A DNA stretch of 64,000 bases from Geomonas oryzisoli (GTDB taxonomy: Bacteria; Desulfobacterota; Desulfuromonadia; Geobacterales; Geobacteraceae), in NCBI RefSeq assembly GCF_018986915.1, contig NZ_CP076723.1, forward strand, positions 2,885,501-2,949,500, in the 5' to 3' direction. The notes under the pieces are model-generated. The model saw only the letters and a list, made by a program, of their open reading frames with translations. It did not search any database and had not been told where the DNA came from. Positions 24,744 to 58,253 of this stretch are shown here, piece by piece (position 1 is the stretch's first letter; the number at the start of each line of letters is the position of its first letter). A program made the translations under genes and the position numbers.

Positions 24744-24886
24744 GGTACGAATGATGAGTTAGCTTGAAGTGCATCTACGAGCACCACTTCTGCTACAGCA
24801 ACGAAGTAATAGTCCCTAAATAAAAATCCGCCGAGGAACATACAAACCGTCAGGTACTCCTTGACAATATTTCAAATGGAGGACAT

Positions 24887-25501: not shown

Positions 25502-25835
25502 TGTAGCGAAGAATGCAGAACGTCAACCAGGTGGCGACACAAAGGCGTTGACCACTGACGCACTGGTGCGCCCCCACCACGTTTTGTCGAATCGAAGAAA
25601 TCAGCGTTAAGCTTCTGTGATTTTTGAATTACTCTCTAGACTGAATCCGCTCACACCTCTATAATGAATTGTGAAGGTGTGGCCAGTTAATTTATAGGCA
25701 ATGCCAACTCGCCTCATCATTTTCGGAAGCGAACCCGTTGAACTAATTAAAATTTTGTAATATTTTGCGGGTAACAGGCTTCTGCCACAGCTAAACATGT
25801 ACTGTAATTTAAGATACTTAAATCTAAAATTGTAA

Positions 25836-25853
25836 TCCCATGTGCTTCCGCCA
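25836..25853 (+). repeat. attR direct repeat
   Basis: TCCCATGTGCTTCCGCCA, identical to the 3' end of tRNA-Sec at 15527-15544. The preceding tRNA sequence is not duplicated. Confidence 0.88.
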
Positions 25854-25967
25854 TTAACTGTTTCCCACCATTTCGGCATCTCTCTAAACCCGCAATCGGC
25901 GGGTTTATTGTTTTTCCTGCGCTGATAAGACGACACCTCAGGCGCATCCTGCTACTTGCCCTCCGAG

Positions 25968-26030
25968 TCCTTATGGTTAATAACCAACGTCTTTGTTTAC
26001 GTTTAGCCCATTACCCATGAATAGTGTGGC
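25968..26030 (+). repeat. 48-nt dispersed element, copy B
   Basis: TCCTTAT then GTTAATAA, with TTTACGTTTA at offset 20 and a TGAATAGTG block at offset 41, ungapped against the copies at 17353 and 32290. About 36 of 51 bases match copy A. No plus-strand gene follows, so promoter activity for a neighbour is not obvious here. Confidence 0.5.
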
Positions 26031-30665: not shown

Positions 30666-30903
30666 CCGTTTTTTCGACGACTTCACACTACACCAGCAGC
30701 TAATCATAGTTATTCATTGTTTATCGATGACGTCCTGCGAGAACCGGTTTCGCTTGCCCCTTCGGTTCGCGTGAGCCGTCCTCGCGCACAGGCCTTTGAA
30801 ATGACACAGAAATTGCTGGACGGGGCTCATAAATTAATGATACATAAGCAGCCACCGTTAAGTTAAGGAGCTTATCAGTTCCCGTCGAAAAGAGGTCTTC
30901 GGA

Positions 30904-38625: not shown

Positions 38626-39687
38626 ATGGCGACCTTCTTCGAGCTGCAGGAAAAGAACCGGCGAAAGACCAAGTGGGTCGTCGCCCTCTTCGTCGCCTTC
38701 TTCCTGTGGCTTGGACTGGGACTCGACCTGGCGCTTTATTACAAGAGCCGCGCCCATCCCCGCCCCGTCCCCGCGAAGATCTACCGGGAGACCGGGCCGA
38801 GCACCTACCAGGAAGCGCAACTCCCGCCGGGAGCGATCCGTCCTTACCAGAAAAAATCCCCGCCGTTTCGCCCCGTGTTCACCGTCCTGATCGGTCTTCT
38901 GGGCGCCGGCCTCGCCTGGTGGGAACTCTCCAGCGCCGCCGCCACGGTTCTCAAAGCCGTCCGTGCCACGCAGGTTGACGGCGACACCAAGGGGCCGGGG
39001 CGGATCTTTCACAACGTGGTGGAAGAGATGTCCATCGCCGCGGGGATGCCCATGCCGTCCGTCTGGATCATCCCCGACCGCGACCCCAACGCCATGGCCG
39101 TCGGCCTGAAGCCCGGCGATTTCCACGTCGCCGCGACCGAGGGGCTCCTCCTCTCCCTGACCCGCGAGGAACTGCAGGCGGTCGTGGCCCACGAGATCGC
39201 CCACATCAAGAACCAGGACGTGCGCCTGATGACGACGCTCACCGTGCTGGTGGGCATATCGGCGCTCATCGCCGAGTTCGTGGCGCGCTGCCGGTATCAC
39301 AGCAGCGACCAGGGCGGGGACGACGACAGCCGCATCGGCAGCATCATCTTCGTGATCTGGCTTTTGACCGTGCTCCTCGCGCCCCTGGCCACCCGCATCA
39401 TGGCGCTCATGGTCAGCAAGGAGCGCGAATACTTAGCCGACGCCTCGGCGGCGCAGTTCACCCGCAACCCGCAGGCCCTCATCTCGGCCCTGGAGAAGAT
39501 ATCCGGTGCGGCCGGAGCGACGCCCAGCATCAGCCAGGCCAGCGCCCATCTGTGCATAGCGAGCCCCACCGCGGCAGATCTCTCCGACGAGGAGAGCCTG
39601 TTCTCGACCCACCCGCCCATGTCGCAACGGATCGCGCGCCTGCGCCTCATCGGCAGGGGCATGGCCTTAGCGCCGTCTGGAGGTTAA
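38626..39687 (+). CDS. M48 family membrane metallopeptidase (HtpX-like)
   Basis: 353 aa. Two N-terminal membrane helices, a central protease domain with the zinc motif VAHEIAHIKNQ, two further helices and the downstream Glu ligand region SKEREYLADASAAQF. Cytoplasmic-facing membrane quality-control protease by family. Follows the CDF gene by 3 bp, so co-translated with it. LemA-M48 pairs are common. Confidence 0.87.
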   Translation: MATFFELQEKNRRKTKWVVALFVAFFLWLGLGLDLALYYKSRAHPRPVPAKIYRETGPSTYQEAQLPPGAIRPYQKKSPPFRPVFTVLIGLLGAGLAWWELSSAAATVLKAVRATQVDGDTKGPGRIFHNVVEEMSIAAGMPMPSVWIIPDRDPNAMAVGLKPGDFHVAATEGLLLSLTREELQAVVAHEIAHIKNQDVRLMTTLTVLVGISALIAEFVARCRYHSSDQGGDDDSRIGSIIFVIWLLTVLLAPLATRIMALMVSKEREYLADASAAQFTRNPQALISALEKISGAAGATPSISQASAHLCIASPTAADLSDEESLFSTHPPMSQRIARLRLIGRGMALAPSGG

Positions 39688-39690
39688 GCA

Positions 39691-40284
39691 ATGAAATGGA
39701 AACCAAGGACCGAGGTCCCCTTCGCACTGGCCGTTTTGGCCATGGGCGTACTGAACGCGCAGGCGGGAACGTCGGGGGAATGGTCGGACGGCAAAAGCCC
39801 GCAGGAGCTCGCCAACCGCGTGGGGGTGAAGATCCACCTGAAGGAAGTCTGCGACAACGGCCACGGCGTCCCCTCGTTCGGCAAAGGGGGGAGAAACGGG
39901 CGGCTGGTCATCGTGAGCCAGGAACCGGCCAACGTCAGCAGCACCATCATCGACCGCTGCGACGGCACGCGCGACATCCTCGATGATGAGACCATGCGGC
40001 AGGAGTACGAGAAGAGTCCCGGTTTCGGCGGTTCTTCCGGCGGCCATGTCCATTACAACTCCTGGCTGAACCACTACTACAACAACACGCTCTACTCCTA
40101 CCGGCAGGGACGCACCGGTTCCTACGAGCACGTGAGCCCGGCGCGCTTCGCCAACCGCGCGGCCGCGGTGCAGTCCAAGGGCGCGGCGAACCACGTCGCC
40201 TCCGCGATGTCCGGGGGCAAGGTCTCCTCCGTGTCGGGCGGCCGGTCCGGCTTTTTCTCCGGCGGCGGCAGGGGAGGCGCCTGA
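39691..40284 (+). CDS. Exported Ser/Gly-rich protein in yjf-like cluster
   Basis: 197 aa with a leader (FALAVLAMGVLNAQAG). Middle part has an NYNS/HYYNNTLYSY aromatic-rich segment; C-terminus is low-complexity (SGGRSGFFSGGGRGG). No confident domain. It lies 3 bp from the M48 gene and 1 bp from the glutathionylspermidine-like ligase, occupying the position of YjfM/YgiB (DUF1190) in enterobacteria, but I cannot confirm DUF1190 identity. Confidence 0.6.
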   Translation: MKWKPRTEVPFALAVLAMGVLNAQAGTSGEWSDGKSPQELANRVGVKIHLKEVCDNGHGVPSFGKGGRNGRLVIVSQEPANVSSTIIDRCDGTRDILDDETMRQEYEKSPGFGGSSGGHVHYNSWLNHYYNNTLYSYRQGRTGSYEHVSPARFANRAAAVQSKGAANHVASAMSGGKVSSVSGGRSGFFSGGGRGGA

Positions 40285-40285
40285 C

Positions 40286-41428
40286 ATGGTGCGGCTCGTG
40301 GAGGCAAAACCGATCTGCTCGGACGACCTCGCCCGCGCCGGGTTCGACTGGTTCGACGAGGAGTACCAGTGCGCCGGCGAGATGGTCGAACTAAGCGAAC
40401 CGGAGGTGGATGCCTATCTCGACGCGGCGGAAGAGCTGTACGAGATGTTCGTGGACACCGCCGAGGAGATCATGACCAACAACCTCCTCCCCGAGTTCGG
40501 TTTCCCGCTCGAGATGAACTCCCAGATCTGGGAAAGCTGGGAAGAGGATCGTTACTGGCACGTCTACGGCCGCTTCGACCTGGCCGGCGGCATGGACGGC
40601 GTGCCGATCAAGCTGATCGAGTTCAACGCCGACACCGCGACCCTGGTGCTGGAAACGGCGGTGGTCCAGTGGCTGCAGGCGAAACATAACGGTTTCGACG
40701 AGTCGGCGCAGGCAAACGATCTCTTCGAGGCGCTGCGGGACCAGTTCGACAAACTGGCATCGCTCAACCCGCAGCTCGAGCGGCGGCTCCTCACCACCTG
40801 CTTCGACTCCTCCGAGGACTACTGGACCTGCCGCCTCATCGAGAAGGCCGCCAACGACGCGGGGTTCGACTGCGACTTCGAGGACATCGACGCAGTCACC
40901 TTCGCCCCCGACGGGGTCTTCACCACCGATCCCGCCAAGGTCTGCTGGCCCTATCTCTATAAGCTCATCCCGTGGGAATCGATCGCCTTCGAGGAACCGG
41001 AACTGCTCGACCTCTTGGGGCAGTCGATGAAATCGGGATCGACCATGGTGATCAACCCGGCCTACACCCTGCTCTTCCAGCACAAGCGCTTCCTCGCCAA
41101 GCTCTATGAGAAGTACCCCGACCATCCGTACCTTCTGAAGACCTCGCTCGCCCCCCTCCCCGCCCCCTGCGCCAGGAAACCCGTGCTCGGGCGCGAAGGG
41201 AAGAACGTGGAACTTCTCCTGGGGACCGGCGCCATAGCGGGCGCCGACGGCGGGTACGGCGCGCAGCAGTCGATCTGGCAGGAACTGGCGCAATTCGCAG
41301 TCGATGACAGGGGCAACAAGTACCAGGCAGGCGTGTTCTTTGCGGGGCGCCCGGCAGGGCTCGGCTTCCGCAGGGATCCCCGCATTCACTCCGACCGGTC
41401 GCAGTTCATCGGCCACATCATCAGGTAG
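40286..41428 (+). CDS. Glutathionylspermidine synthase-like ATP-grasp ligase (YjfC/YgiC-like)
   Basis: 380 aa with the GSP_synth pattern: DWFDEEYQCAGEMVELSEPEVDAY, GRFDLAGG, IKLIEFNADTATLV and LEDLLGQ-type KS and LFQHKRFLAKLYEKYP near the end. There is no N-terminal amidase domain, as in YjfC and YgiC, whose reaction is unproven. Probably an amide-bond-forming ATP-grasp enzyme. Neighbours DUF350 and LemA/M48 genes support the yjf-like cluster. Confidence 0.82.
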   Translation: MVRLVEAKPICSDDLARAGFDWFDEEYQCAGEMVELSEPEVDAYLDAAEELYEMFVDTAEEIMTNNLLPEFGFPLEMNSQIWESWEEDRYWHVYGRFDLAGGMDGVPIKLIEFNADTATLVLETAVVQWLQAKHNGFDESAQANDLFEALRDQFDKLASLNPQLERRLLTTCFDSSEDYWTCRLIEKAANDAGFDCDFEDIDAVTFAPDGVFTTDPAKVCWPYLYKLIPWESIAFEEPELLDLLGQSMKSGSTMVINPAYTLLFQHKRFLAKLYEKYPDHPYLLKTSLAPLPAPCARKPVLGREGKNVELLLGTGAIAGADGGYGAQQSIWQELAQFAVDDRGNKYQAGVFFAGRPAGLGFRRDPRIHSDRSQFIGHIIR

Positions 41429-41440
41429 CCCGGAGTCTCC

Positions 41441-42688
41441 ATGGCAAAGGCAAAGAAAAAGAAAACCGACTCGTCCGGCCTGCTCTCCAATTTCGGCGTC
41501 ATGGCCAGCGTCATCGGGATAGGAATCGCGGTAGGCGGCGTGTACCTCGCCAACCTCTACAACGAAAGGCAGGAGCGCAACGAGAAGCTCCGGCAGTTTT
41601 GCGCCGGGGCGCTGGCCGGGGTCGCCCAGTGCCAGAGCGAGTACGCCGCGCTCACCTCCCAGAAAGAGTGGCCCGAGATCAAGCCGCTGGCCGACCGGGA
41701 GAAATGGACCCAGGCCATCGCCGAGGGAGGGGCCAGGATCAACGAGGCCAGGAAAACCGTGTGCGAGGAAGGGGCGAAGGATCTCGACGCCTGCCAGGAA
41801 GTGGCCGACACCGTGAAAGAAGAGATGGCGGGCCTGTCCGAGCACATGGAGGACATCCAGGTTTCGGCCATCGACCGTACCGGCATCAACGAGCGCCTGC
41901 ACAAGGACCTTTCCGAGAGCAGGACCCTGTTGCGCCGGGCGGAAGTGTTGCTGGGAGACCCGAAGAGCCTGCGGGAGGGAGGCGACCGCACCCTGGTCGC
42001 GAACATCAAGCAGGAACTGTCAGGCGCGAAAGAGGGAGGCGCCCTCACCTTCAGCGAACTCTACCTCAGCTCCCGGACCGCCGAGAAAAGCGCCGAGCGG
42101 CTGCGCTGGCTGGTGCAGAGGCTTACCGGCGAGAAGGCGGTCCAGTCCGATGAGTGGGTGGTGCACGTCCTCGACAGCCGTCCCGCCTATCTCGCGACCC
42201 TGGTTCGCTACACCTGGGACAACAGCAAGGATTCGCCCACCGTGTCGAGCACCGAGTCCACCGTCGAAGTGAGCAAGGACGTATTGGACACCATCAGGAG
42301 CAGCACCGGCGCCACCATCGCAGAAACGAGATCGTCCGGAGCGCTCCTGCAGTCCCGGGTGAACGAGGAAGTTGCCACCGCGCTGGGCCTGCCCTCCCTG
42401 GCCCAGGCCCCCTACCCTTATATGGACAGCCACGGCGAGATCTACCTCGATGAATGTTCCGAGGCGTTGAAAGTCACCTTCCAGTTCAAGTTCAAGGGGC
42501 GGACCATCGAACAAGCCGCAACCATTTACAAAGAAGATCTGGGTGTGCTCTACCCGCTGACCGCCGCCCAGACCTTCGTGCTGAAAGAGAAAAACGCCTC
42601 CACCGACCAATTACAGATACCGGTGTGGCTGGCGCAGACCTGGAGCCAGGTTTACAACCAGCGTACCCCGCAACAAGGAGGGATCTAG
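41441..42688 (+). CDS. Membrane-anchored protein of unknown function
   Basis: 415 aa. Lys-rich start (MAKAKKKKTDSSG), one membrane helix (VMASVIGIGIAVGGVYLAN), then a long helical soluble region. The gene lies between the ligase and the DUF350 gene with short gaps (12 and 1 bp). I do not recognise a family. Its position in the run suggests an envelope role. Confidence 0.72.
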   Translation: MAKAKKKKTDSSGLLSNFGVMASVIGIGIAVGGVYLANLYNERQERNEKLRQFCAGALAGVAQCQSEYAALTSQKEWPEIKPLADREKWTQAIAEGGARINEARKTVCEEGAKDLDACQEVADTVKEEMAGLSEHMEDIQVSAIDRTGINERLHKDLSESRTLLRRAEVLLGDPKSLREGGDRTLVANIKQELSGAKEGGALTFSELYLSSRTAEKSAERLRWLVQRLTGEKAVQSDEWVVHVLDSRPAYLATLVRYTWDNSKDSPTVSSTESTVEVSKDVLDTIRSSTGATIAETRSSGALLQSRVNEEVATALGLPSLAQAPYPYMDSHGEIYLDECSEALKVTFQFKFKGRTIEQAATIYKEDLGVLYPLTAAQTFVLKEKNASTDQLQIPVWLAQTWSQVYNQRTPQQGGI

Positions 42689-42689
42689 G

Positions 42690-43097
42690 ATGGCCATCGC
42701 GCTCGATCACAACATCATCATCAACTACGGTACCTACCAGGTCCTCTCCATGTTTTACCTCGCCCTCTTCTCCTGGATCTACATCCGGTTCACGCCCTAC
42801 GACGAGATCGGCCTGATCCGCGAGGGGAACCTGGCCGCAGCCGTAAGTCTCACCGGAGCCCTGCTCGGTTTCGCCATCCCCGTAGCCATCGTAATAGCGC
42901 ACAGCGTGAACCTGGTGGACATGGCCGCCTGGGCCCTGATGGCCACCATGGTGCAGCTTTTCGTGTTCAGCGTGCTGCGCAAAGTACTGGGGTTTGTAGT
43001 AGACGACATACAAGCCGGCAAAGTCCCCTCCGCCCTCATCCTCGCCGCCTTTTCCAGCGTCGCAGGCATACTCAACGCTGCGTGTATGACGTACTGA
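42690..43097 (+). CDS. DUF350 family membrane protein (YjfL-like)
   Basis: 135 aa with four membrane helices in two similar pairs (FYLALFSWIYIRFTPYDE, LAAAVSLTGALLGFAIP, and VQLFVFSVLRKVLGFVV). Matches the DUF350 (UPF0719/YjfL) layout, with acidic/Asp residues between helices. Function unknown. Last gene of the lemA-to-DUF350 run, 1 bp from the previous stop. Confidence 0.78.
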   Translation: MAIALDHNIIINYGTYQVLSMFYLALFSWIYIRFTPYDEIGLIREGNLAAAVSLTGALLGFAIPVAIVIAHSVNLVDMAAWALMATMVQLFVFSVLRKVLGFVVDDIQAGKVPSALILAAFSSVAGILNAACMTY

Positions 43098-43330
43098 CGA
43101 GGGGAGCGAGGTATGAACATTAATAAGTTACATAAGTCACCTGCGTCCCATCCTGCCATGACGACTACTATCTCGGCTGGACCTTTGGCCCGGTACTGGT
43201 CGACAACCCATTCACTATAGAGGACGATATCGATCGTGCCCATATTGGTTTTGGTTTCTTGGTTGCCGCGTCCCATCTGATCCTGGAATCCTACGGCTTC
43301 ATCTTCGGCAGCCGCTGGATTTGGTCTAGG
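43098..43330. repeat. Direct repeat and remnant frame after the DUF350 gene
   Basis: 43116-43150 (AACATTAATAAGTTACATA, then ACCTGCGTCCC) is repeated at 43604-43638 with AACATTAACAAGTTACACA, then ACCTGTGTCCC. An open frame (not begun by a clear start) runs from about 43132 into the 43331 gene. Confidence 0.55.
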
Positions 43331-44425: not shown

Positions 44426-45178
44426 ATGGAATTCCTATTCAGGAAAAATGACGTCATTACGGCAGTGTTCAAAAACCTAGTAAAAGCATGGCAAGGTGGG
44501 CCTAAAAAAGTCCGTACAATAATTGTTTCCGGGCTAGCTGCCGGAGGAGTTGGAATTACTGTGCTGTCCTTATCTGATGCCAATATCATCACTAAGGAAT
44601 TATCACAGGCTATTGCACCAATTTTCTTTGTGTACTGTGCTGTAATTATAGTAGCTATTACAGCAAGGCAAGAAATAATAGAAGAGGATGAGAGTGATCA
44701 AAAAATAGAAGCTGTTGCAGAGCGTGTTCGCGAGAATCCTAAGGAAACACAAGCGGCATGGGAATTGGCTAGAGTAAAGCTTGAAAGCTACTTAAATCGG
44801 AATATCAATCAGGTTCGCTCAATATTTTGGCTTACTGCATTCGTTATGTCAGTCGGATTTTCGCTCATCATTTATGGAGTCTATATTTCTTATAAGAACC
44901 CCAATGTATTAGAGCCGTCTATAATCGCTGCTTGCTCAGGGGTGTTGGTGAATTTTATAGGAGCGACTTTTTTGGTCATATACCGTTCCACAATGGCTCA
45001 AGCAAAGGATTACGTAACGGTATTAGAGAGAATAAACGCAGTTGGCATGGCGGTCCAAATTCTTGAAACGATAGACGATAAAGATGGGCAACTCAAACCA
45101 AAAGCGACTGCCGATTTAGCTAAACAATTGCTTCAGCTATACACAAACAATGACAAATACAAGCCAAAACGGAAGTAA
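44426..45178 (+). CDS. Membrane protein resembling TRADD-N-associated membrane domain
   Basis: 250 aa. A helix pair near residues 30-55 and 65-80, then the block AWELARVKLESYLNRNINQVRSIFWLTAFVMSVGF, a second helix pair, and VIYRSTMAQAKDYVTVLERINAVGMAVQILE. The last blocks resemble the TRADD-N-associated transmembrane (TRADD-N_AMD) domain known from cyanobacterial and other bacterial conflict-type proteins. That is a memory-based pattern match, not a search result. Signature signalling domains such as TRADD-N itself are absent. With the upstream tail-anchored protein it may be a membrane effector pair. Confidence 0.6.
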   Translation: MEFLFRKNDVITAVFKNLVKAWQGGPKKVRTIIVSGLAAGGVGITVLSLSDANIITKELSQAIAPIFFVYCAVIIVAITARQEIIEEDESDQKIEAVAERVRENPKETQAAWELARVKLESYLNRNINQVRSIFWLTAFVMSVGFSLIIYGVYISYKNPNVLEPSIIAACSGVLVNFIGATFLVIYRSTMAQAKDYVTVLERINAVGMAVQILETIDDKDGQLKPKATADLAKQLLQLYTNNDKYKPKRK

Positions 45179-45704
45179 GGGGGCGAGGGGCGAGGGGGGC
45201 GAGGGGGACATCCCTGAAATCCTGAGTAACGCTAAAATAGTGATTTTTCAAGACCTGACACCCAACACCGCGAGGGCATTTTTGTCGCGCTACGGAAGAT
45301 GAGTATCAACTCGAAATCTATCTACGGAGACTTATCTGGTTTGGCAAAAGCCATACGGATGGAGATACAAGCTTACACTAGATGACGAGAGGGTAGAGTA
45401 GATAGCAGGTGTTACCCTGCCCGCCTCATCAAACCGTGCATGGCCGAGGGGGACGTTGCTAAGCTTGTTAAGTTGTAGAAGGGGCTGGAAATAGGTTGAG
45501 GAACAGTGGGGTCAGCCCTTCTAACAGGTAACAGGTGCCAGGTCTTGAATTATTGGGTTTTGGTCAGAGAAAAGTGATTTTTCAAGACCTAGCACCGCAT
45601 GTAGGCACCGCATGTCATTCAACTTCTGCTCCCTTGAAGTTGATTCAACTTGCAACTTTGCTTCGCCTTAGACGCCCAAACATAGTTACGACCGGAGCTT
45701 AGAA
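45179..45704. repeat. Gene-free region with REP-like hairpin
   Basis: 526 bp. G-rich start (ggcgaggggcgaggggggcgag). GGTGCCAGGTCTTGAA (45534-45549) pairs with TTCAAGACCTAGCACC (45581-45596), one mismatch. A half copy, gtgatttttcaagacctgacaccc, lies at 45239. The direct repeat caccgcatgt follows near 45593 and 45607. Looks like dispersed REP/MITE debris. Confidence 0.5.
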
Positions 45705-47426
45705 ATGTACGACCAATCTCAGGAACGCGCAGTCTTTGTGGCAAGCCTTCCTTACATGGTTAGTGCTAAAGCACTCGCCCTTTCTAAAGGCATGAATGAT
45801 CATGGCCCACTACACGCACAACGCGTTCACGCGATCATTGGTCGCTTATGTGCGTTACTTCCGCTCACCGTGTACGAGCGAGACCTCGTCTGTGCCGCGG
45901 CGCTCCTACATGACATCGGCATGGCAAAGGACAGAGAAAACCATCATGTGGTTTCCGCCGAGCTCGTTCGTGCGCTTGCTGAGGAAACCAAGCTACCTTT
46001 CACTACTGCCGAAGCTGAAGTAGTATCGACTTTATGTGAATGGCATCGACGAGATTATGATGCTGACGCCGTTCATTCTGAGAGTGGAATACGCATAGGC
46101 GTTCTAGCGTCACTTTTGCGCCTAGCGGACGCATTGGACCTAGATTATCGGCGGGCCGAGGACTATTTAAAACAGGAACCTGTTATCGCACACGTCCACC
46201 ACACACAAGCACCGCACCATCTTAGCGTCCGGAGTATCCTCGGTGTCAGGTTGTATGCAAGCCAGATGGGAACTGAAGTACAGCTTCTAGTCGATCAAAT
46301 GACACATGCGGGACTGCAACTAGAGCGACTGGTTGATGAGCTGCTGGGCACACCAATCACATGGCCAGTAAAGTTAATTCCTGTCAGAAGACGTCCCTCC
46401 GCCGGTCACATTTTCAATACAGTGCGAGGTGCCGCTGTGTTTTCCTATTGTAATGCCCATGGCATCATACAGGCCGGCATGTCTAAGAGCGCCCTCGATA
46501 TGGCTGGCTTCTCAACTACTGTCATTTGCGACAAGGAGCGTACAGGTTCTCCTCCGAAATTTTGGGAAAAGACGGTTCCGCAGTTGGACCTTTCAAAGTT
46601 TAAGCTCATTGCTATTCTCGGATTGGATATTCCGGAAGAAAATTTCCAACAGTTCCTGAAAATTGTGCGGCAAAATCCAGAGTGTCGCTGGGTCTATGCC
46701 ACGCCGCTGGAGCAGACATCTGAGAGAGTTGCAGCCCTCCTGAACGAGGGCGTCGACGTTGTGGTCGGCGATGCGCGCTTACTTTTTGCTGGCGACGCAC
46801 TGACAGAACATGCAGCTCAGTGGTCAAAAATTGCCGGATTATGCAACGCCGATGACTGGCTTACGTCTAGTGGGAGTTTCAGTCGAAAAGAGTTCCTTGC
46901 AGCACGTGGGCTCCGCTTGGAGTTACTGCAACTTTTTGAATCCCGGGCGGATAACGATGCTTACATGTCGCTTATAAACAGGGTTGCATCCGGAGACCTT
47001 GATTCCTTCATCACGAGTGAGAATGGCTGGACGAGTGTGCTCGCAGGGCGAATGCCAGCTGTTGACCGCAGAGACCGCGTACTTATTCTGCAGGACTGCC
47101 AATCCATGCCGGGCCGTTTCATTTACGACCTTGCTCACCTCGCAATCGAACAGCAGGGTGTCCTCCCGTGGGATCAGAACGAGTTCGCAACACCATATGC
47201 AATTTGTCGGCTCCCACTCTCGGACGGTTCGGAAAGAATCCTTTACCTCAGCAGGTTCAGTCGGCTGGAAGGCGCTGTGCCGATCAAATACTTCGTCTCA
47301 TACTCCAAGCACCAACTAGGATCTGGTGCCACCATCTGGCAAACATATCCGACAAAAGAGTCAGCAGACGCGGCAATCGAAGCAACTGTCCAGAATATCA
47401 ATAGGTTTTTCTCATGCGAAGATTAA
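45705..47426 (+). CDS. HD-domain protein with unknown C-terminal half
   Basis: 573 aa. An HD metal-dependent phosphohydrolase domain occupies about residues 1-180: HGPLHAQRVHAI then AALLHDIGMAKDRENHH with the His-Asp pair, CEWHRRD and LLRLADALDLDYRRAED. The remaining 390 residues have no domain I recognise. Its stop overlaps the start of the radical SAM gene by 13 bp, so translation is coupled. Lower GC than core genes. Substrates of the family include nucleotides and phosphoesters; the role here is unknown. Confidence 0.82.
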   Translation: MYDQSQERAVFVASLPYMVSAKALALSKGMNDHGPLHAQRVHAIIGRLCALLPLTVYERDLVCAAALLHDIGMAKDRENHHVVSAELVRALAEETKLPFTTAEAEVVSTLCEWHRRDYDADAVHSESGIRIGVLASLLRLADALDLDYRRAEDYLKQEPVIAHVHHTQAPHHLSVRSILGVRLYASQMGTEVQLLVDQMTHAGLQLERLVDELLGTPITWPVKLIPVRRRPSAGHIFNTVRGAAVFSYCNAHGIIQAGMSKSALDMAGFSTTVICDKERTGSPPKFWEKTVPQLDLSKFKLIAILGLDIPEENFQQFLKIVRQNPECRWVYATPLEQTSERVAALLNEGVDVVVGDARLLFAGDALTEHAAQWSKIAGLCNADDWLTSSGSFSRKEFLAARGLRLELLQLFESRADNDAYMSLINRVASGDLDSFITSENGWTSVLAGRMPAVDRRDRVLILQDCQSMPGRFIYDLAHLAIEQQGVLPWDQNEFATPYAICRLPLSDGSERILYLSRFSRLEGAVPIKYFVSYSKHQLGSGATIWQTYPTKESADAAIEATVQNINRFFSCED

Positions 47427-48811
47427 CGCTTGTCCTTCCCTTGTTCAAGACTCGGGCGGTGCCTAGACGCCGAGTCCCCTCTGGGCTTCTCTCTCTTGCT
47501 GCCGAAGTACAGGCCATAAAAGACGTTCGTGTGGAGGTCGTTGACGCGGAGTCCTTAGGATGGGATGCTGCGGACGTTGTAGAATACTTGGTTTCGAGTA
47601 AACCAGACGCGGTTGGCATATCGGTCTGCTCACCTACTTTTCCATCCGCCTTAGAGTTGACGAAGGTAATTCGCACAAAAATGCCGGAGGTCTTAATTGT
47701 TCTCGGTGGTAAGTATGTCACCCACAGCTGGCAATCGGCATTAAACGCTGGAGCAAATGCTGATGCCATGGTGCGTGGCGACGGGGAGTCTGCCATCGCC
47801 GTTTTGGCGCAGGGGCTCGCGGCTGGCGCTAACCGATTGGAGATAGTGTCTGCTCTGGAAGCGCTTCCAAATGTTTGGGTACCAGGAAAGAAGGCTCCCA
47901 CTCTTCCTCCCGCATTCAATTTGCAAAATGCACAGCCTTGGCCACTCGAAGTGCTGGCTCACAATCTAGACCTCTATCAAGGCGATAGGATGCTCATAGA
48001 GTTTTCGCGTGGCTGCCCTGGACGATGCAGTTACTGTCTAGCCTCGCGTGATCGGCAACAGATTTCATTTCGACCCGTAGCTCAAGTAGTCGAGACGATT
48101 GCACACTTCAGTGCGAAAGGCTTCTCCGCTTTCTTTTTCACCGATGACGATTTTGCAGCTTCACCTAACCATCTAGCATCCCTTCTTGAGGGGATTGTTG
48201 AGCGTGGACTAAAAATAAAGTTCGACGCTAATGTCCGTCCCGACAGTCTCGTGCGTTGTGAGAAAATCGCACCTCTATTGAAAAGGGCGGGCTGCCGTTG
48301 CCTTTGGCTTGGCATCGAAAGTGGCAGCCCCGCGATACTGGAAACTTACCGAAAAGGGTTCGATACTAACGTGTGTGAGCGGGCTGTTGTGACTGCACTC
48401 ATTGCTGCCGATGTGGTGCGAACAAACTGGATTATTGGAGCTCCACTAGAAACTAGGGAAACTGTCAACGCTTCGATGGATTTTGCTACGCGGTTGCGAC
48501 GACTCGGCCCCCACGTTCCGCACATCTCGTTCATGGTTCCCTATCCAGGAACCCCACTTTGTGACGAAGCGCTCGCACTCGGTCTGATTTCGCCGTCACA
48601 TCTTGCAGAACTCGCGGAGTCCACTCATGACGAACCAGTCATGCCGTCCCAATTTCTGACAAAAAATGAGCTGAAAGAGCTTTTTTATCAATTCCATCAG
48701 AGGTGTTTTACTCCTGAGTCCCTTGCGTCCTCACCGCCTGCCGTTGCAGATGAAGCACGACTTGTTTTAAGCAGTGCAGGCCTCACGAATAAAAATTGCC
48801 CTAAACCATAA
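47414..48811 (+). CDS. B12-binding radical SAM protein
   Basis: 465 aa. An N-terminal cobalamin-binding Rossmann domain (about 1-140; YLVSSKPDAVGISVCSPTFPSALE, VIRTKMPEVLIVLGGKYVTH) lacks the DxHxxG lower-axial His motif, as is common in this class. The radical SAM core has the cluster motif RGCPGRCSYC and TDDDFAASP, then LWLGIESGSP and NWIIGAPLETRE. Enzymes of this architecture methylate or rearrange unreactive carbons. Encoded between an HD protein and a P-loop kinase; the substrate is unknown. Confidence 0.88.
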   Translation: MRRLTLVLPLFKTRAVPRRRVPSGLLSLAAEVQAIKDVRVEVVDAESLGWDAADVVEYLVSSKPDAVGISVCSPTFPSALELTKVIRTKMPEVLIVLGGKYVTHSWQSALNAGANADAMVRGDGESAIAVLAQGLAAGANRLEIVSALEALPNVWVPGKKAPTLPPAFNLQNAQPWPLEVLAHNLDLYQGDRMLIEFSRGCPGRCSYCLASRDRQQISFRPVAQVVETIAHFSAKGFSAFFFTDDDFAASPNHLASLLEGIVERGLKIKFDANVRPDSLVRCEKIAPLLKRAGCRCLWLGIESGSPAILETYRKGFDTNVCERAVVTALIAADVVRTNWIIGAPLETRETVNASMDFATRLRRLGPHVPHISFMVPYPGTPLCDEALALGLISPSHLAELAESTHDEPVMPSQFLTKNELKELFYQFHQRCFTPESLASSPPAVADEARLVLSSAGLTNKNCPKP

Positions 48812-48825
48812 AAGCGGAGACTTTC

Positions 48826-49389
48826 GTGAAAGTTGCATTCACAGGATCGAGCAGCACAGGGAAGACTACTCTGGCATTAAGACTCCAAACCGACCCACGA
48901 TTTTGCATTCTGCTGCCGGCTTTCATTACAGTCGATGCACGACGGATTCTAGCCGAGAGGGGGTTCGGAAGCATGGACCGAATGCAACCAGAAGAACTCA
49001 GGAGTTTTCAACATGCTTACCTTGAGCGCAAACTCGCACTTGAAAACGGACGGGACGGGTACTTCACTGATCGATCTTTCATTGATTTAGCAGCATATTG
49101 GCTTGAAAGAGATGCCGCAGGGTTGCCAGCAAGCGAGGTGGAAGCTTTCGTTGAAATTTGCCGCCACGAAGCGAATCGGTATGACCTTCACGTCTACTTT
49201 CCTTATGGCTTAATTCCTTTTGAAAGTGACGGTTATCGCTCTGAGGATGAGATCTTCCATCAGCGGATCAATTCTCGAATATGTCAACTCCTTCATGACT
49301 GGGGCCACCGTGTGGTGCGACTCAATGCCATCGATATATCTGAACGGTGCGATGCGGTAATTGGCACATTACAGGAGATCGGTACTTAA
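48826..49389 (+). CDS. P-loop nucleotide kinase-like ATPase (NadR/AAA_28 type)
   Basis: 187 aa. N-terminal P-loop GSSSTGKTTLALRL, then ITVDARRIL, GYFTDRSFIDLAAYWLERD (Asp-rich base-binding loop) and VYFPYGLIPFESDGYRSEDEIFHQRI. Matches the AAA_28/NadR-like kinase-like family, in which members phosphorylate nucleosides or nucleotides. It is the last gene of the three-gene operon, 14 bp after the radical SAM stop. Substrate unknown; a small-molecule kinase is the simplest reading. Confidence 0.8.
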   Translation: MKVAFTGSSSTGKTTLALRLQTDPRFCILLPAFITVDARRILAERGFGSMDRMQPEELRSFQHAYLERKLALENGRDGYFTDRSFIDLAAYWLERDAAGLPASEVEAFVEICRHEANRYDLHVYFPYGLIPFESDGYRSEDEIFHQRINSRICQLLHDWGHRVVRLNAIDISERCDAVIGTLQEIGT

Positions 49390-49473
49390 TAGTCAGGGGA
49401 CAGGGGGACGGTCATAAGATCATAAGTTTCTTTTGGCTGAAAGGCTCAGCTGATCTAGTTTGTTACGGAAACA

Positions 49474-49666
49474 GAGGGACGCCCGTGAAATTATGCGTTA
49501 CTCGTTGCAATACTCCCGGAAGGAATGGCATCCCCACTCTCCGGTACCCGAATCAGAAGGTAATTTATGGAGGGAGCTATGGCGCAACAGGGGAACGCCC
49601 ATGAAATTATGCGTTTCCCTTTGCCATGAGGTCGGAAGAAACGCATGAAATCATGGGCGTCCCCAA
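49474..49666. repeat. REP-like remnant near the operon end
   Basis: GAGGGACGCCCGTGAAATT (49474 on) and AGGGGAACGCCCATGAAATT (49589 on) are near-direct repeats. ACGCATGAAATCATGGGCGT (49641 on) is the inverse of the same core. The pattern resembles the terminal repeats of REP-associated transposase families. No transposase remains. Confidence 0.55.
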
Positions 49667-49776
49667 GTCCTCGGGAGCGAGGGGGACGTAGTTGGGGGAC
49701 GAGGGGGACGTAGTTGAGTTCGTTGAGTTTTGCTAGGGGGACGTGGATGTGGTTGAAAGGGAGGCGCTGTCACCCT

Positions 49777-52752: not shown

Positions 52753-53019
52753 GCGAACCTCCATTACCAGGTTTTGATGACAGCCAGTTCAACACTGCGG
52801 GACTCTTTGCAAGGGCTATGTTACAGCGTAGGGGGAGGAGAAGGGGTGCTTTCGAATTGTCACAGTAGAAGACTGTACCAGCCTCTATTCATGTGTCAAA
52901 CAGAAGGGAGGATGGAGCATCTGCAGACAGATCAACTAAGACGGAAGACGGACATCACAGCATCAAGGTTCAGCCCAGGCTAAAAAGTCCCCGGCCAGAA
53001 CTGGAGGAGCAAGGGAGCA

Positions 53020-53093
53020 AAGGGGACGGAGGGGATTAGTTGACTAAGAGCTGAAAACGGTAGGAATAGTCAACAGATCAACCCCGTCCCCTT
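53020..53093. repeat. Imperfect palindrome upstream of the minisatellite
   Basis: A left arm (53020-53046) and right arm (53067-53093) of 27 nt each, beginning AAGGGGACGG on one strand and ending CCGTCCCCTT, pair over most positions. Another REP-like element of this genome, in the norZ upstream flank. Confidence 0.6.
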
Positions 53094-53190
53094 AGTCCGC
53101 AACGTTGCCAGCGTGCCCCACGGTTTCCCTTAAGGTACGATCGCCTGGTAGGAGTTGAAAAAGGAGATCGCGGTAGAGGCCATTAAGTCG

Positions 53191-53626
53191 TTTAGTTCCC
53201 GTGCATCACGATTTAGTTCCCGTGTATCGCGATTTAGTTCCCGTGTATCGCGATTTAGTTCCCGTGTATCGCGATTTAGTTCCCGTGCATCACGGTTTAG
53301 TTCCCGTGCATCGCGATTTAGCTCCCGTGCATCGCGATTTAGTTCCCGTGCATCTCGATTTAGTTCCCGTGCATCGCGATTTAGTTCCAGTGCATCGCGA
53401 TTTAGTTCCCGTGTATCTCGATTTAGTTCCCGTGTATCGCGATTTAGTTCCAGTGTATCGCGATTTAGTTCCCGTGCATCACGATTTAGTTCCCGTGCAT
53501 CACGATTTAGTTCCCGTGCATCACGATTCAGTTCCCGTGCATCACGATTTAGTTCCCGTGCATCGCGATTTAGTTCCCGTGCATCGCGATTCAGTTCACG
53601 TGCATCGGGATTTAGGTCCCGTGTAT
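53191..53626 (+). repeat. 21-bp tandem repeat (21 copies) interrupted by the IS element
   Basis: Unit consensus TTTAGTTCCCGTGCATCGCGA, with copies starting every 21 bp from 53191 to 53611 and differing at one to three bases. The 21st copy is split by the IS and resumes at 54945. It is a multiple of 3, so both strands have long frames (minus-strand heptad LNRDARE). No start codon before it on the minus strand once the IS is removed, so coding is doubtful. No spacers, so it is not CRISPR. Confidence 0.9.
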
Positions 53627-54944
53627 GGGCGTGTAAAGGATTTTGTGTAAATGCCCCATCGGCTACATTTGTGGCATTCTTCCTTCGTAAATAATTGAGA
53701 ATTGATTTAGAGCTAGCCTCCACCCGGGAATTGCTTTGCACCAGGTTTTGGAAACGTTCCTAAAAGCCAAGTAAAGCAGCTTGAACATGGCCTCGTCGTT
53801 CGGGAAAGATCCTCGGTTTTTCGTTACCTTCCGTACCGACATGTTTAGGGACTCAATGGCGTTGGTGGTGTAGATGACCCTCCTGATCTCGGGAGCATAC
53901 GAAAAGAAGGGAATTATATTATCCCAGTTTCTTCGCCACGCCTTCGATACCGACGGATAAGTCGGGTCCCATTTTGCCTCAAATGCCTCCAGATTCATCT
54001 CGGCCTGCTCTGCCGTCGGGGCCTGATATATTGCCCTCAAATCCTCAGCAACTTCTTTCCAACGCTTCCTAGCAACGTAGTTCATGCTGTGACGGACCAT
54101 GTGCACGATGCAAAGCTGAACCTGGGTATTTGGGAAAACCGCTTCAATTGCTTCAGGAAAGCCTTTGAGACCATCAACACATGCTATGAAGATGTCCTTT
54201 ACTCCCCGATTTCTCAGTTCCGTAACTACCTGAAGCCAGAACTTGGCACCTTCATTTTCGGCAGTCCACACTCCTAGGATCTCCTTGATCCCTTCCGCAG
54301 TGATGCCTATGCCGAGATAGACTGCCTTATTAATAACATGGCCATTATGTCGGACTCGTACTCTGATGGCATCCAGATATACAATCGGGTAAACCTCTTC
54401 TAAAAGCCGATTCTGCCACTGTTTTACTTCATCTGCGATGGCATCCGTGACCTGTGATACGAGCGTTGGCGAGACCTCTACTCCATACATCTCCTGAAGG
54501 TGACCCTGAATGTCACGAGTGGTCATTCCACGGGCGTACATGGAGATGATCTTGTCGTCAAAGCCGGTAAAACGAGTCTGCCCCTTTGGCAGGATAAGCG
54601 GCTCGAATGTTCCATTGCGGTCGCGCGGGACGGTGACTTTGAGGGTACCGAATTCTCCCTTTACCGTTTTGTCATAACTCCCATTGCGCGAGTTCCCGCT
54701 GTTATTGCCGTCTTGGGAATGCTTCTCATAACCAAGATGATCTGTCATCTCGGCCTGCATTGCGCGCTCGAGGACGCGTTTAGTCAGATGCTTCAGAAGC
54801 CCGTTTTCACCAACGATGTCCTCGGGTTTCTTGCAGTCCTTCATCAAAGCATCATGCAATTCATCTACACTGGCCATCGGTTTCCCTCCTGAGAAGTGGG
54901 TTCTAACCGAAATTGGCCATTTACACAAAGGATTTTACAGGCCC
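53627..54944. mobile_element. Complete IS256-family insertion sequence
   Basis: 1318 bp with terminal inverted repeats (GGGCGTGTAAAGGAT and GGGCCTGTAAAATCC, then both TTTGTGTAAATG), flanked by an 8-bp direct repeat CCGTGTAT at 53619-53626 and 54945-54952. The insertion is inside one unit of the 21-bp repeat. The element appears intact. Confidence 0.88.
53663..54877 (-). CDS. IS256-family transposase
   Basis: 404 aa from ATG 54877, with AGGAGGG upstream. IS256-type DDE transposase: MASVDELHDALM, VYLDAIRVRVR (first Asp), CVDGLKGFPEAIEAVFPNTQVQ (second Asp), and the Glu in TTNAIESLN. It fills the IS between the terminal repeats. Probably active. Confidence 0.93.
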   Translation of the reverse strand: MASVDELHDALMKDCKKPEDIVGENGLLKHLTKRVLERAMQAEMTDHLGYEKHSQDGNNSGNSRNGSYDKTVKGEFGTLKVTVPRDRNGTFEPLILPKGQTRFTGFDDKIISMYARGMTTRDIQGHLQEMYGVEVSPTLVSQVTDAIADEVKQWQNRLLEEVYPIVYLDAIRVRVRHNGHVINKAVYLGIGITAEGIKEILGVWTAENEGAKFWLQVVTELRNRGVKDIFIACVDGLKGFPEAIEAVFPNTQVQLCIVHMVRHSMNYVARKRWKEVAEDLRAIYQAPTAEQAEMNLEAFEAKWDPTYPSVSKAWRRNWDNIIPFFSYAPEIRRVIYTTNAIESLNMSVRKVTKNRGSFPNDEAMFKLLYLAFRNVSKTWCKAIPGWRLALNQFSIIYEGRMPQM

Positions 54945-55117
54945 CCGTGTATCGCGGTTTGTAGCACGTAAGCGTTGATATATTGGTTACTAGCGAACAT
55001 TTGTAACTTGTAAATCAAGATAAAAGGATTGAAGAATTAGGGGGCAAGAAAGAAGAGCTAGACGCGGACGACGGCATACGGGGGGCATGGAAGGAAGTGC
55101 GGGAAATGAATGAAATA

Positions 55118-55139
55118 GGGGGTGTCGAGAGACACCCCC
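55118..55139. terminator. Hairpin at the 3' side of the 55179 gene
   Basis: GGGGGTGTC-gaga-GACACCCCC (9-bp arms). On the minus strand it is followed by TATTTCATT, a weak terminator tail. Confidence 0.55.
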
Positions 55140-55178
55140 CCGTTGAAATGTCCTTTGAGGCGGAGAGCCGGAAGCGCA

Positions 55179-55610
55179 TCAAGATGAGCTACCGCCCTCA
55201 CCTTCTCCCGGCTCGCTCTGACCTGCACCGAGTGCTGCATTTACGGCCTTGCCCCGGCCGTGCCCCCTTCTGTCCTTGCACAGGTCGAATCCGGAGACGC
55301 TATACACGTCAGGTCTCAAAACGGCGACCATTTCCAGGTACAACACAATCTGGTCGAGGTAAATGACAAGCTGCGCCTGGAGTAGGTCGCGTTCCACAAG
55401 CAACATCCTATTGCCCATCATGGTCTCGTTATGCACCGCATCGTGTTTGACCACTGCAGCAAAAAACGCCTGGAGCAGCGCCAATCTCCCTTCCCAAAAT
55501 GAATCGGGAAATCTGGTCTTGTCACCCAGCGCGGCTGCAACCCTCTGCACAAAGGTGTGAAACTTCGTTGGCGGCAGATTCCGGTAGTTCCGTATAATCC
55601 GAAAACCCAT
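55179..55610 (-). CDS. Hypothetical protein of 143 aa
   Basis: Start and tail look coding (MGFRIIRNYRNLPPTKFHTFVQRVAAALGDKTRFPD, then KHDAVHNETMMGNRMLLVERDLLQAQLVIYLDQIVLYLEM). No family recognised. Helical, no signal peptide. A similar kind of protein occurs repeatedly in Geobacter genomes in my memory, but I cannot confirm that. Two plus-strand frames in this interval are antisense. Confidence 0.6.
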   Translation of the reverse strand: MGFRIIRNYRNLPPTKFHTFVQRVAAALGDKTRFPDSFWEGRLALLQAFFAAVVKHDAVHNETMMGNRMLLVERDLLQAQLVIYLDQIVLYLEMVAVLRPDVYSVSGFDLCKDRRGHGRGKAVNAALGAGQSEPGEGEGGSSS

Positions 55611-55833
55611 GTCGCACCTCCCTTGCTTCGCATCAGCGAAAGCCCTGACCTTCGTTTAATTAGTCTACTCCAATCTATGCAGCGTAATTGAGAATACAAC
55701 GTAGATGACGCAATGCAAGCCGGAGCGGTTAAATACTCCAATGGCCCCTGAGGGGGCTAAAAGCGCTGCCGCGGTCTGCAGAAAAGAGATGTCATTGCGA
55801 GGAGGGGAAAGGTGTCGGAGCAGAAGCAGGGAA

Positions 55834-56913
55834 TCAGGACTGCGATGTTGCGGGGGCTAGCTGCTGATTGGCCTTCAACCATGCGACGAAACGCTCCCTG
55901 TTCCTTCTCGACAGGATGCGTGCGAACTTGTCCTGGTCGTAGAGATAGAGGCAGTGCCTGATCGAGGTGTAGGCGCTGAAGGTTCTTTCAGGGTTTTCCG
56001 CGAGCATGTGGTCGCGATACTCCCTGACGACCTTCAGATTCTCGTTCAGGCACCGGTGCAGTTCGGCCTTTTGCAGGGTGCTGTTTTGCTCGAGTATGTC
56101 CTGGACGAAATCATCTACCTTCTCGTCGTCGAAGACGAAGTCACGGAAAAAGTGCCCGGCAATGGGCATGAAATTAAAGGCGTTCACCGTCCTCGTGCCC
56201 GAGATAACCGCCTGGCCCGGCGCTTCCGGTTCGACCTGCGTCACCGTCGCCTGCTGCATCAGGTCGGAGGTCGCGTTCCTGATCTCTTTAAACTCACGGT
56301 CAGCGAGCTCGAAAAGGGCGGCGAGCACGTTGATCCTGCGCTTCAGATCCACCGGGATCGACTTCTTGTACTTGATCTTATGGTCCAGCATGCTCCAGGC
56401 GTCCTGGATCAGCGACCGAATCTGCACCTCGAAGCAGAGATCAGCCGACGGCAGGTTCCTGGTGAGATAAGCCGCCTCAGGGTCCAGTGCCAGATCCATG
56501 TGCAGCCCCTTGTAGCCGAAGGAGTCTTCCGTGCTCTCCACAGCTGAAGTCTTGTCGGTGACGTTTAATATCTTGAAATTGCGCTGCAGCAGTTCCGACA
56601 CCACCGGGACCTCATCTTCATAGAGGCAGACGATACGAACGCCTATCAGGTCCGAGATGAAGTCCCTTATCTGGTAGGGCTGCTCGTCGGCCTCGAGTTT
56701 CCCCTGGTACTTGCGCTGGAACTTTTTGATGCACTCCTCTTTGTCCTTGACGCGCCCTTCTACCTTTGTGGTCGCCCCCGCTCCAGTCTGGCTCACGAGG
56801 CTTCTGACGATGTCGACAAAGGAGTCCTTCGCCGCAATCAACCGTTTCTCGTTAGTCTCGTAGTATTTCCTGAAAAGTACTTTTTCCCGCTCAAAATCAA
56901 CTGATGCCATCAT
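55834..56913 (-). CDS. RelA/SpoT-domain (p)ppGpp synthetase-like protein
   Basis: 359 aa. Synthetase-domain motifs: GRVKDKEECIKKFQRKYQG, DLIGVRIVCLYEDEVP (catalytic Asp), DSFGYKGLHMDLALD and FEVQIRSLIQDAWSMLDHKIKYKKS. No HD hydrolase domain and no TGS/ACT. The C-terminal 150 residues have no recognised domain. Longer than typical small alarmone synthetases (about 210 aa). A nutrient or stress alarmone synthetase, or a toxic synthetase; which one cannot be told. Confidence 0.85.
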   Translation of the reverse strand: MMASVDFEREKVLFRKYYETNEKRLIAAKDSFVDIVRSLVSQTGAGATTKVEGRVKDKEECIKKFQRKYQGKLEADEQPYQIRDFISDLIGVRIVCLYEDEVPVVSELLQRNFKILNVTDKTSAVESTEDSFGYKGLHMDLALDPEAAYLTRNLPSADLCFEVQIRSLIQDAWSMLDHKIKYKKSIPVDLKRRINVLAALFELADREFKEIRNATSDLMQQATVTQVEPEAPGQAVISGTRTVNAFNFMPIAGHFFRDFVFDDEKVDDFVQDILEQNSTLQKAELHRCLNENLKVVREYRDHMLAENPERTFSAYTSIRHCLYLYDQDKFARILSRRNRERFVAWLKANQQLAPATSQS

Positions 56914-57062
56914 CGAATTCCTTATACCTCAAACCGCACAGCCGGAGTTCCTCCGTAGGAAGTGCATATTCGCTCCTGCTCACGAAGCTGTCCGTTGTTC
57001 AATAGCACAGGCGGGCTCTTTCAAAAAGGGAATTCGCTCAACGGTGAGGCCGAGGTCGCATC

Positions 57063-58196
57063 TCAGAAATGCCGCTCTTCGACCTCTTCGGCGGCTTTGT
57101 GGCGCTTGGCGGGGGGCTTCCAGAAGCTCGCCTGCCAGTTGTCGATCCCGTTTTCCCGTGCCACCCACGGGGGAAGACCGACCTTGAAATGGCGGGAGAG
57201 CGCGTAGACGTAGGGCTCGTACATGAGGCGGAGCTCGGCAAGGTTTTGTTCCAGGACTCCCCTCTCCTTCAGCTTGTAGCCGCTCTCGCGAAGGATGTCG
57301 CAGATCTCATCCAGCTTCGCCGAAGGCAGCCGGTCAGCCGGCAGTTGCCGGGGCTGGGTACGGAACACCAGCGCCAGGTCGACCACGGCATGGCGCGACA
57401 TGGCGAAGGTAAGCTCCGCCTGGCGGTTGCAGGTCCCCTCCACTCCCGCCATGATCAGGGCGCAGGTGTCCAGGATCGAGGTGAGCGCGGCCAACCAGGA
57501 CTGGTTGTCGTGCTGGGAACGGAAATAGGCGAGCACGGGGTAGGACAGATGCCCTTCGAGGAATTCCGCGGACCAGCGCTCCCACTCGTGCAGCAGTTCG
57601 CGAAGGGATTCGGCGCCGCCGTGGTGGCTGTGTCTGCGCAGCATCTCCGAAGCGGTGGGAGGTGAACCGGCCCTGGCGTCAAGCAGGGAGATGCTCACCT
57701 CGCGCCGGGCGAAGGATTGGTTCAGGGCCGGCAGGTAGCTGATGACCAGGGCGAGGAACGCGAACCCCATCCCGGATTCGACCACCACCAGCAAACGCCC
57801 CAGGCTCGTCTTGGGCACCACGTCGCCGATGCCGAGGGTGAAGAAGGTGGTGCCGCTCAGGTAGAGGTCGCTGATCAGCGCGGTGCCGCCGTCGGAGTAA
57901 AAAAGCCAGGAACCGCCCCAGTGGATGAAGGCGAAACCGGTGATCAGCACCGCCGCCCAAAGGCTTAAAAGAAGTAACAGCGACAGCGGCCCGAAGTAGC
58001 TCAGCCATGTTTCCCTGCGCCTGGGGGGAACGAAGTTGTGGATGAGCCAGGTCCAGGGACGCCAGCTGCTGCGGTAGAAGACCCGCGTGATTCGGAAGCG
58101 GCGCGTCACCCGGCGCGGCAGGATGATGGTTTCGAACCCCTCCCACAGTACCAGGAGCACCAGCACGGCTCCAAGAATCATCGCCACGATAGCCAT
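57063..58196 (-). CDS. Two-pore ion-channel-like membrane protein (Ion_trans_2)
   Basis: 377 aa with about four N-terminal membrane helices and the pore loop TTFFTLGIGDVVPKTSLGRLL, a TxGxGD variant of the K+ filter. The C-terminal 200 residues are soluble and unrecognised. Plausibly a K+ channel; the filter variant means selectivity is uncertain. Separated by 149 bp from the RelA-type gene on the same strand. Confidence 0.75.
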   Translation of the reverse strand: MAIVAMILGAVLVLLVLWEGFETIILPRRVTRRFRITRVFYRSSWRPWTWLIHNFVPPRRRETWLSYFGPLSLLLLLSLWAAVLITGFAFIHWGGSWLFYSDGGTALISDLYLSGTTFFTLGIGDVVPKTSLGRLLVVVESGMGFAFLALVISYLPALNQSFARREVSISLLDARAGSPPTASEMLRRHSHHGGAESLRELLHEWERWSAEFLEGHLSYPVLAYFRSQHDNQSWLAALTSILDTCALIMAGVEGTCNRQAELTFAMSRHAVVDLALVFRTQPRQLPADRLPSAKLDEICDILRESGYKLKERGVLEQNLAELRLMYEPYVYALSRHFKVGLPPWVARENGIDNWQASFWKPPAKRHKAAEEVEERHF

Positions 58197-58253
58197 ATCC
58201 GCCTCTCATCCGCCCTTCGCACCGCCGTTAACTCTCATAGCATTATAACCTAG

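Follow-up and report, generated by a model that had tools for sequence, protein, structure and literature searches.

In a 64,000-nucleotide stretch of the Geomonas oryzisoli genome (contig NZ_CP076723.1, positions 2,885,501 to 2,949,500; hereafter the window), three adjacent genes are predicted to encode an HD-DHH protein, a cobalamin-binding radical S-adenosylmethionine (SAM) enzyme and a small-molecule kinase, and we give about an even chance to the reading that this trio is self-contained and exchangeable, a cassette for making, and also limiting, a modified nucleoside or nucleotide. By open reading frame (ORF) calling and Pfam assignment, gene 1 lies at 45705-47426 (+ strand, ATG start, HD-DHH protein of 573 amino acids), gene 2 at 47414-48811 (+ strand, ATG start, candidate cobalamin-binding radical SAM enzyme of 465 amino acids) and gene 3 at 48826-49389 (+ strand, GTG start, AAA_28 small-molecule kinase of 187 amino acids). 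All three ORFs are intact, with a 13-bp overlap between genes 1 and 2 and a 14-bp gap between genes 2 and 3, as an initial annotation of this DNA had described together with the ORF sizes and the shared strand. Its domain calls (HD, B12-binding plus radical SAM, P-loop kinase) are confirmed by Pfam scores above the cut-offs, and the lower GC content that it reported relative to the core is likewise present, at 0.49-0.53 in five 1-kb intervals across the trio versus 0.60-0.66 in five intervals at 38-43 kb.

Comparison with a sister genome (G006) established that the three genes are one real unit. G006 carries the trio at the same locus, between outer flanks that correspond to window positions 39345-43104 and 55027-58211; between these flanks the cargo is largely unlike, whereas the cassette is kept as a single block (45677-49399, 95.7% identical over 3.7 kb) with dissimilar sequence adjoining it on both sides. 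Identity begins 28 bp upstream of the HD start codon and ends 10 bp past the kinase stop codon. The ratios of nonsynonymous to synonymous substitution (dN/dS) between the two Geomonas-type genomes were 0.11 for the HD gene, 0.22 for the radical SAM gene and 0.16 for the kinase gene, and all three genes are therefore maintained by selection. These results support the compact accessory module proposed in the initial annotation, although its description of borders formed by repeat debris holds for one side: the 3′ flank contains a 22-bp unit present twice (49673-49716) and a 30-bp pair (49470-49499 and 49586-49615), while the 5′ flank (45181-45704) had no match within the window or a 20-kb G006 stretch (E ≤ 1e-3) except the 28 bp adjoining the HD start. 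A repeat of roughly 85 bp is also dispersed over the region, with one copy in the window (53005-53101) and four at the G006 locus (L087, 3661-3755, 5994-6080, 10793-10878 and 13030-13112); in G006 one copy stops at the start of the trio block, and this repeat may mark or mediate exchange of the block. In addition, window positions 30889-32203, which lie 13-14 kb upstream of the trio, match a segment located just upstream of the trio in G006 (L087, 11495-12812; 79.7% identical), a sign of cargo shuffling in the region.

The N-terminal half of the gene 1 protein (about residues 1-230) is an HD phosphohydrolase domain of the HD-CE/Ppx-GppA domain III type, with Pfam scores of 58.7 bits for HD-CE (cut-off 27) and 38.3 bits for HD (cut-off 22); its best matches among solved sequences are exopolyphosphatases and GppA. 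Residues H37, H69, D70, H80, H114 and D142, which we take to be the metal ligands of an H..HD..H..H..D motif, are invariant in the 29 aligned rows of the 55 available (the window protein plus 54 matches), and all 29 family rows match HD-CE at E ≤ 1. Structure prediction of the C-terminal half (about residues 241-570), which the initial annotation had proposed, yielded a predicted DHH/DHHA1 (RecJ-type) fold, common to the PAP phosphatase 8a8k, the pGpG phosphodiesterase 7d62, RecJ and Cdc45. No DHH Pfam model was found for the 29 rows among the best 25 of 29 matched families, and an hhalign comparison with Escherichia coli RecJ placed CNAHG opposite FDADG and GDAR opposite TDHH at a level that was not significant (E 0.074, probability 0.8%), a weak indication that the DHH metal motifs may be degenerate. 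Some relatives bear an N-terminal extension and some rows show weak winged-helix matches. The nearest database HD protein, from Geomonas subterranea, is 97% identical, and a BFVD structure search returned viral DHH-type and HD-type proteins whose TM-scores to the query did not exceed 0.36.

Gene 2 scored above the Pfam cut-offs for both B12-binding (56 bits versus 32.1) and Radical_SAM (49.9 bits versus 29.5), and its CxxxCxxC motif (C201/C205/C208) was invariant in 15 rows. By domains and motif it is probably a cobalamin-binding radical SAM enzyme, with cofactor binding and SAM cleavage predicted. The nearest solved sequences were AprD4, OxsB, 9ccb, the tryptophan C2-methyltransferase 6wte and TokK; in the profile search the leading three gave 4.3e-18, 1.1e-16 and 5.7e-16, respectively, and their order was unchanged in a second search. 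None of the best 25 of 34 matched NCBIfam models reached its cut-off, and a viral contig search found no contig for this protein. Plasmid matches (83 records, the best 60 being 22-29% identical) were taken as other B12-radical SAM proteins; of three such matches with wide flanks, two belonged to sugar-type clusters and the third was surrounded by unnamed genes.

Gene 3 matched Pfam AAA_28 with 75.4 bits (cut-off 27) and has a Walker A motif. Its predicted fold appears closest to the ribosylnicotinamide kinase domain of NadR and to deoxynucleoside kinases of the dNK/TMK type, with the nucleoside kinase AbmG (8j5f) at rank 48 of the structure matches; the 187 residues cover the kinase domain alone, and the nicotinamide mononucleotide adenylyltransferase domain of full NadR is absent. 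The kinase family is broader than the trio. Searches with gene 3 gave matches in 0/4 genomes and in 0/76 genomes from the family to which G575, with the Citreicoccus locus L033, belongs, although the protein database contains one kinase from Myxococcaceae at 48% and another from Myxococcus at 49%; no match was returned from plasmids or phages. As a separate observation, NadR-like kinases with 24-26% identity to gene 3 occur between replication- or repair-type genes in two viral contigs (L095, 2921-3499; L096, 9989-10621).

To date the trio has appeared rarely and in more than one arrangement. Among 196 relatives (own genome included), only G. oryzisoli and G006 carry a full-length HD protein; 125 of the 196 gave some match, but beyond these two carriers the matches spanned only a portion of the HD half (about 29-41% identity) and were excluded from the count as presumably Ppx/GppA-like, judging by match position and length. 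A sample of 395 genomes from the phylum contained no match beyond the G. oryzisoli genome itself (E ≤ 1e-20), and searches of genomes from small classes were also negative (0/3, 0/1, 0/29, 0/23 and 0/42). In another class of the phylum, the HD protein was found in 2 of 327 genomes (G664 and G942), and the same pair accounted for the 2 of 288 detected in the family of one of them; the G664 protein is 99.8% identical to a database entry labelled 'Syntrophaceae bacterium' (P0026) and 87% identical to one labelled 'Desulfovibrio sp.' (P0027). At both of these loci (L091 and L092) the radical SAM and kinase genes adjoin on one strand and the HD gene is convergent. Thus, at all four full-length HD loci in the examined genomes of the phylum a B12-radical SAM gene and an AAA_28 kinase gene are adjacent (similarity rather than Pfam identified the kinase of G942 and the genes of G006), and the linkage has been kept despite the rearrangement seen in G664 and G942. 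Two metagenomic contigs also seem to carry all three genes, as judged from contig sizes shared by the homologue lists of the HD, radical SAM and kinase proteins, respectively: 26548 (P0004/P0057/P0073; 67, 64 and 61% identical to the window proteins) and 71209 (P0012/P0062/P0076; 58, 55 and 58%). Sizes of 4265 (HD and radical SAM lists) and 6705 (radical SAM and kinase lists) are weaker hints of linkage, and only 26548 and 71209 were counted because short sizes collide by chance (P0077 and P0150 are both 2374). The joint conservation in distant genomes that the initial annotation suggested looking for is therefore present at four of four phylum loci and on two contigs deduced from their sizes. 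On the kinase tree, the members of known or presumed trios are not a single clade: seven rows require four changes, and two of these rows (P0072 and P0077) were presumed to be trio members from two-gene size matches only. Alignment coverage was 29 of 55 sequences for A1, 38 of 86 for A2 and 15 of 15 for A3. The trio is a rare and apparently mobile module.

The two arrangements differ most in their radical SAM enzymes. Between the window and G664, identity was 40% for the HD protein and 41% for the kinase versus 25% for the radical SAM protein, and a parallel pattern was observed for G942 (41%, 34% and 25%, respectively). In the near group (the contigs of 26548 and 71209), by contrast, all three proteins have diverged to a similar degree. 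The radical SAM tree leaves the two arrangement groups apart, with long branches, weak inner support and a long-branch warning, and the best NCBIfam models are BchE/HpnJ for the window group versus ApyD/PhpK for the second. The simpler reading of these sequence comparisons is that the radical SAM subfamily was exchanged between arrangements, while fast or deep divergence may instead account for the difference.

From the enzyme classes, observed in sequence and predicted fold, and from the observed linkage, we infer a nucleoside substrate, an order of steps, a role for the DHH half and a biological use. The kinase would phosphorylate a substrate or product of the nucleoside type, the radical SAM enzyme would use its B12-dependent chemistry to rebuild the sugar or base by methylation, ring contraction or rearrangement, and the HD-DHH protein would remove phosphates from, or bind, the modified nucleotide, with product release, self-protection or feedback as the possible outcome; this order of roles is proposed because of the logic of thmABC and OxsA/OxsB, two published systems compared below. 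The nucleotide-type pathway of the initial annotation is accordingly supported at the level of inference, through the fold of the kinase and the precedent of known cassettes with like enzyme classes. Several points weigh against this assignment. Product, substrate and activity are predicted, from modelled folds and by analogy; only three independent kinds of locus were read; and AAA_28 kinases can act on non-nucleosides. For gene 2, AprD4 outscores OxsB, which gives no clear sign of a special closeness to OxsB, and the leading NCBIfam models, far under their cut-offs, are those of the tetrapyrrole and hopanoid enzymes BchE and HpnJ. For gene 1, no OxsA entry was present among the 5 solved-sequence matches at E ≤ 1 or the 15 at E ≤ 10 obtained with the 29-row profile. 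The BchE and HpnJ matches, together with the fold similarity of the kinase to the ribosylnicotinamide kinase domain of NadR, are what would be expected of ordinary accessory metabolism, in which the trio modifies or salvages a cofactor-like riboside (resembling nicotinamide adenine dinucleotide), a lipid or a tetrapyrrole; we regard this as the least probable explanation considered here, as the trio is rare and missing from most close relatives and the radical SAM subfamily differs between arrangements, which would be unexpected for an invariant step of metabolism.

Distant HD relatives in Chloroflexota add a further point on the opposing side. A broader contig scan gave at least 66 loci, of which six (L021-L026, Chloroflexota; one of 3.9 kb only and two with partial HD matches) were used and the rest were taken as partial matches of the Ppx/GppA-like kind. 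None of the six matched any of three radical SAM and three kinase queries (E ≤ 0.01). Singly occurring homologues, which the initial annotation had named as evidence against its module, are represented by these relatives. By eye, a ParA/MinD-like ATPase gene lies directly upstream of the HD-DHH relative in L021 and L023, where the relative has an N-terminal extension, and HAMP-sensor-like genes lie downstream in L021 and L022. The lack of partners and the adjacency to ParA-like and sensor genes suggest a signalling use there. A signalling or stress module, with the HD-DHH protein as second-messenger hydrolase or sensor and the other two enzymes making or tuning a signal rather than a poison, would also agree with folds that are those of Ppx/GppA and dinucleotide hydrolases, with the N-terminal extensions and weak winged-helix matches of relatives, and with the response-regulator-like genes that accompany the Chloroflexota gene (by eye). 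For the trio itself, however, we consider it quite improbable, given that no receptor or regulator was recognised in common among the HD-radical SAM-kinase loci and that the DHH metal motifs, on weak indications, look degenerate.

The surroundings of the trio bear on a narrower form of the nucleotide-cassette reading, namely that the modified nucleotide acts inside the cell, like viperin products, as a polymerase poison or signal in phage infection, kept low beforehand by the HD-DHH protein. The G942 trio is flanked on one side by restriction-modification-type genes and others (a C5-methyltransferase, a BglII-like protein below the Pfam cut-off, an SNF2 helicase and NOV_C) and on the other by DUF3987 and, by eye, a resolvase-like gene; near the G664 trio are a Fic-type gene matching the PADLOC candidate PDC-S04 (2.6e-70) and, by eye, genes resembling integrases and insertion sequences (IS). 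These neighbours, the sparse distribution (2/196, 2/327 and 2/288) and the lack of a recognised transporter beside the trio (although most neighbouring ORFs had no Pfam run) are consistent with an antiphage system. On the other side, none of the nine Geomonas neighbours tested matched PADLOC; the trio proteins themselves gave weak PADLOC matches, gene 2 matching at E ≤ 1 only the candidate PDC-M51A (7e-7, the best) and PD_DExK (0.027); and no HD relative was found in phage or plasmid records or among 27 candidate IMG/VR stretches. These results do not establish the defence or signalling role suggested initially, and for defence the three kinds of locus come with no background frequency of such neighbours in comparable islands. 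An antiphage system is possible but seems rather unlikely. A bolder version, that these are a new family of mobile nucleotide-antimetabolite antiphage cassettes of anaerobes in which a constant HD-DHH and kinase pair guards the nucleotide, the radical SAM enzyme is swapped between lineages to give each a different warhead, and the degenerate DHH half acts as a sensor permitting destruction or release of the product by the HD half, is speculative and somewhat less likely again. A small radical SAM protein of 271 amino acids near the G664 trio (L091, 4351-5166) matched pVip models at 5.6e-13 and is possibly only a general radical SAM relative.

Other features were observed around the trio in the window. 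Just upstream (44426-45178), a gene encodes a membrane protein with a CyanoTRADDas_TM domain (3.3e-19), named for TRADD-N conflict-type proteins, and G006 carries other sequence at this position. Downstream are norB and a Mutator-family transposase gene (53663-54928), which adjoins a 21-bp unit repeated 20.6 times (92% match; 53191-53623, within 53130-53741) that is open on both strands and translates as 7-residue peptide repeats (ELNRDAR). The interval 24001-26000 has a GC content of 0.39-0.40 in surroundings near 0.6 and is likely a foreign insert.

Collectively, the cassette may make an antibiotic-like or antiviral nucleotide, and its interest lies in B12-radical SAM chemistry, which is hard to predict, and in the fact that a known radical SAM, kinase and phosphohydrolase trio makes a new nucleoside antibiotic. 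The trio occurs in anaerobes and fits one clonable piece of 3.7 kb, and two radical SAM lineages accompanied by a related HD-kinase pair offer a direct test of swapped product chemistry versus constant handling. A search of open-licence papers, judged mainly by title and abstract opening, recognised none, among the papers listed, that describes the trio or the HD-DHH fusion. HD-CE proteins are associated with Hsp90; gene 1 resembles HD-CE (PF24391) in an HD domain above the Pfam cut-off and differs in its DHH-type C-terminal half and its radical SAM and kinase partners. Prokaryotic viperins (pVip/SAND), described in the accessible text of PMC9642334 as radical SAM enzymes that make a nucleotide analogue, share the radical SAM class, and a PADLOC model is named 'Viperins associated with kinases', but the trio enzyme carries a B12 domain, and that model name includes no HD-DHH partner; membership was rejected, as gene 2 had no pVip match in the PADLOC models. 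In the oxetanocin A pathway, the cobalamin-dependent radical SAM enzyme OxsB contracts the sugar ring of dAMP, dADP or dATP and the HD enzyme OxsA strips phosphates (PMC13331322), with OxsB activity requiring OxsA (PMC13331322, PMC7074753). There, as in the trio, an HD protein gene stands beside a cobalamin-dependent radical SAM gene, whereas no kinase partner is described in the accessible parts of these sources and the HD protein of the trio has an extra DHH-type domain; membership was again rejected, the HD protein being nearest to Ppx/GppA with no OxsA among the listed matches. The radical SAM enzyme, for its part, scores no better against OxsB than against AprD4. In the 4′-thiothymidine cluster thmABC of Photorhabdus asymbiotica, as far as the available text of PMC12691670 describes it, genes for a radical SAM enzyme, a nucleoside kinase and a nucleoside triphosphatase are adjacent and co-cluster with differing flanks in gammaproteobacteria, the cloned genes yielded 4′-thiothymidine in E. 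coli in medium with vitamin B12, and the triphosphatase ThmC alone conferred resistance. Compared by description rather than by sequence, and with substrate classes assigned by fold, three matching enzyme classes are adjacent in the trio as well, although ThmC is a nucleoside triphosphatase and the trio has an HD-DHH protein. By analogy, the trio probably works like this known kind of cassette, from which its HD-DHH component and apparently exchangeable radical SAM enzyme set it apart.

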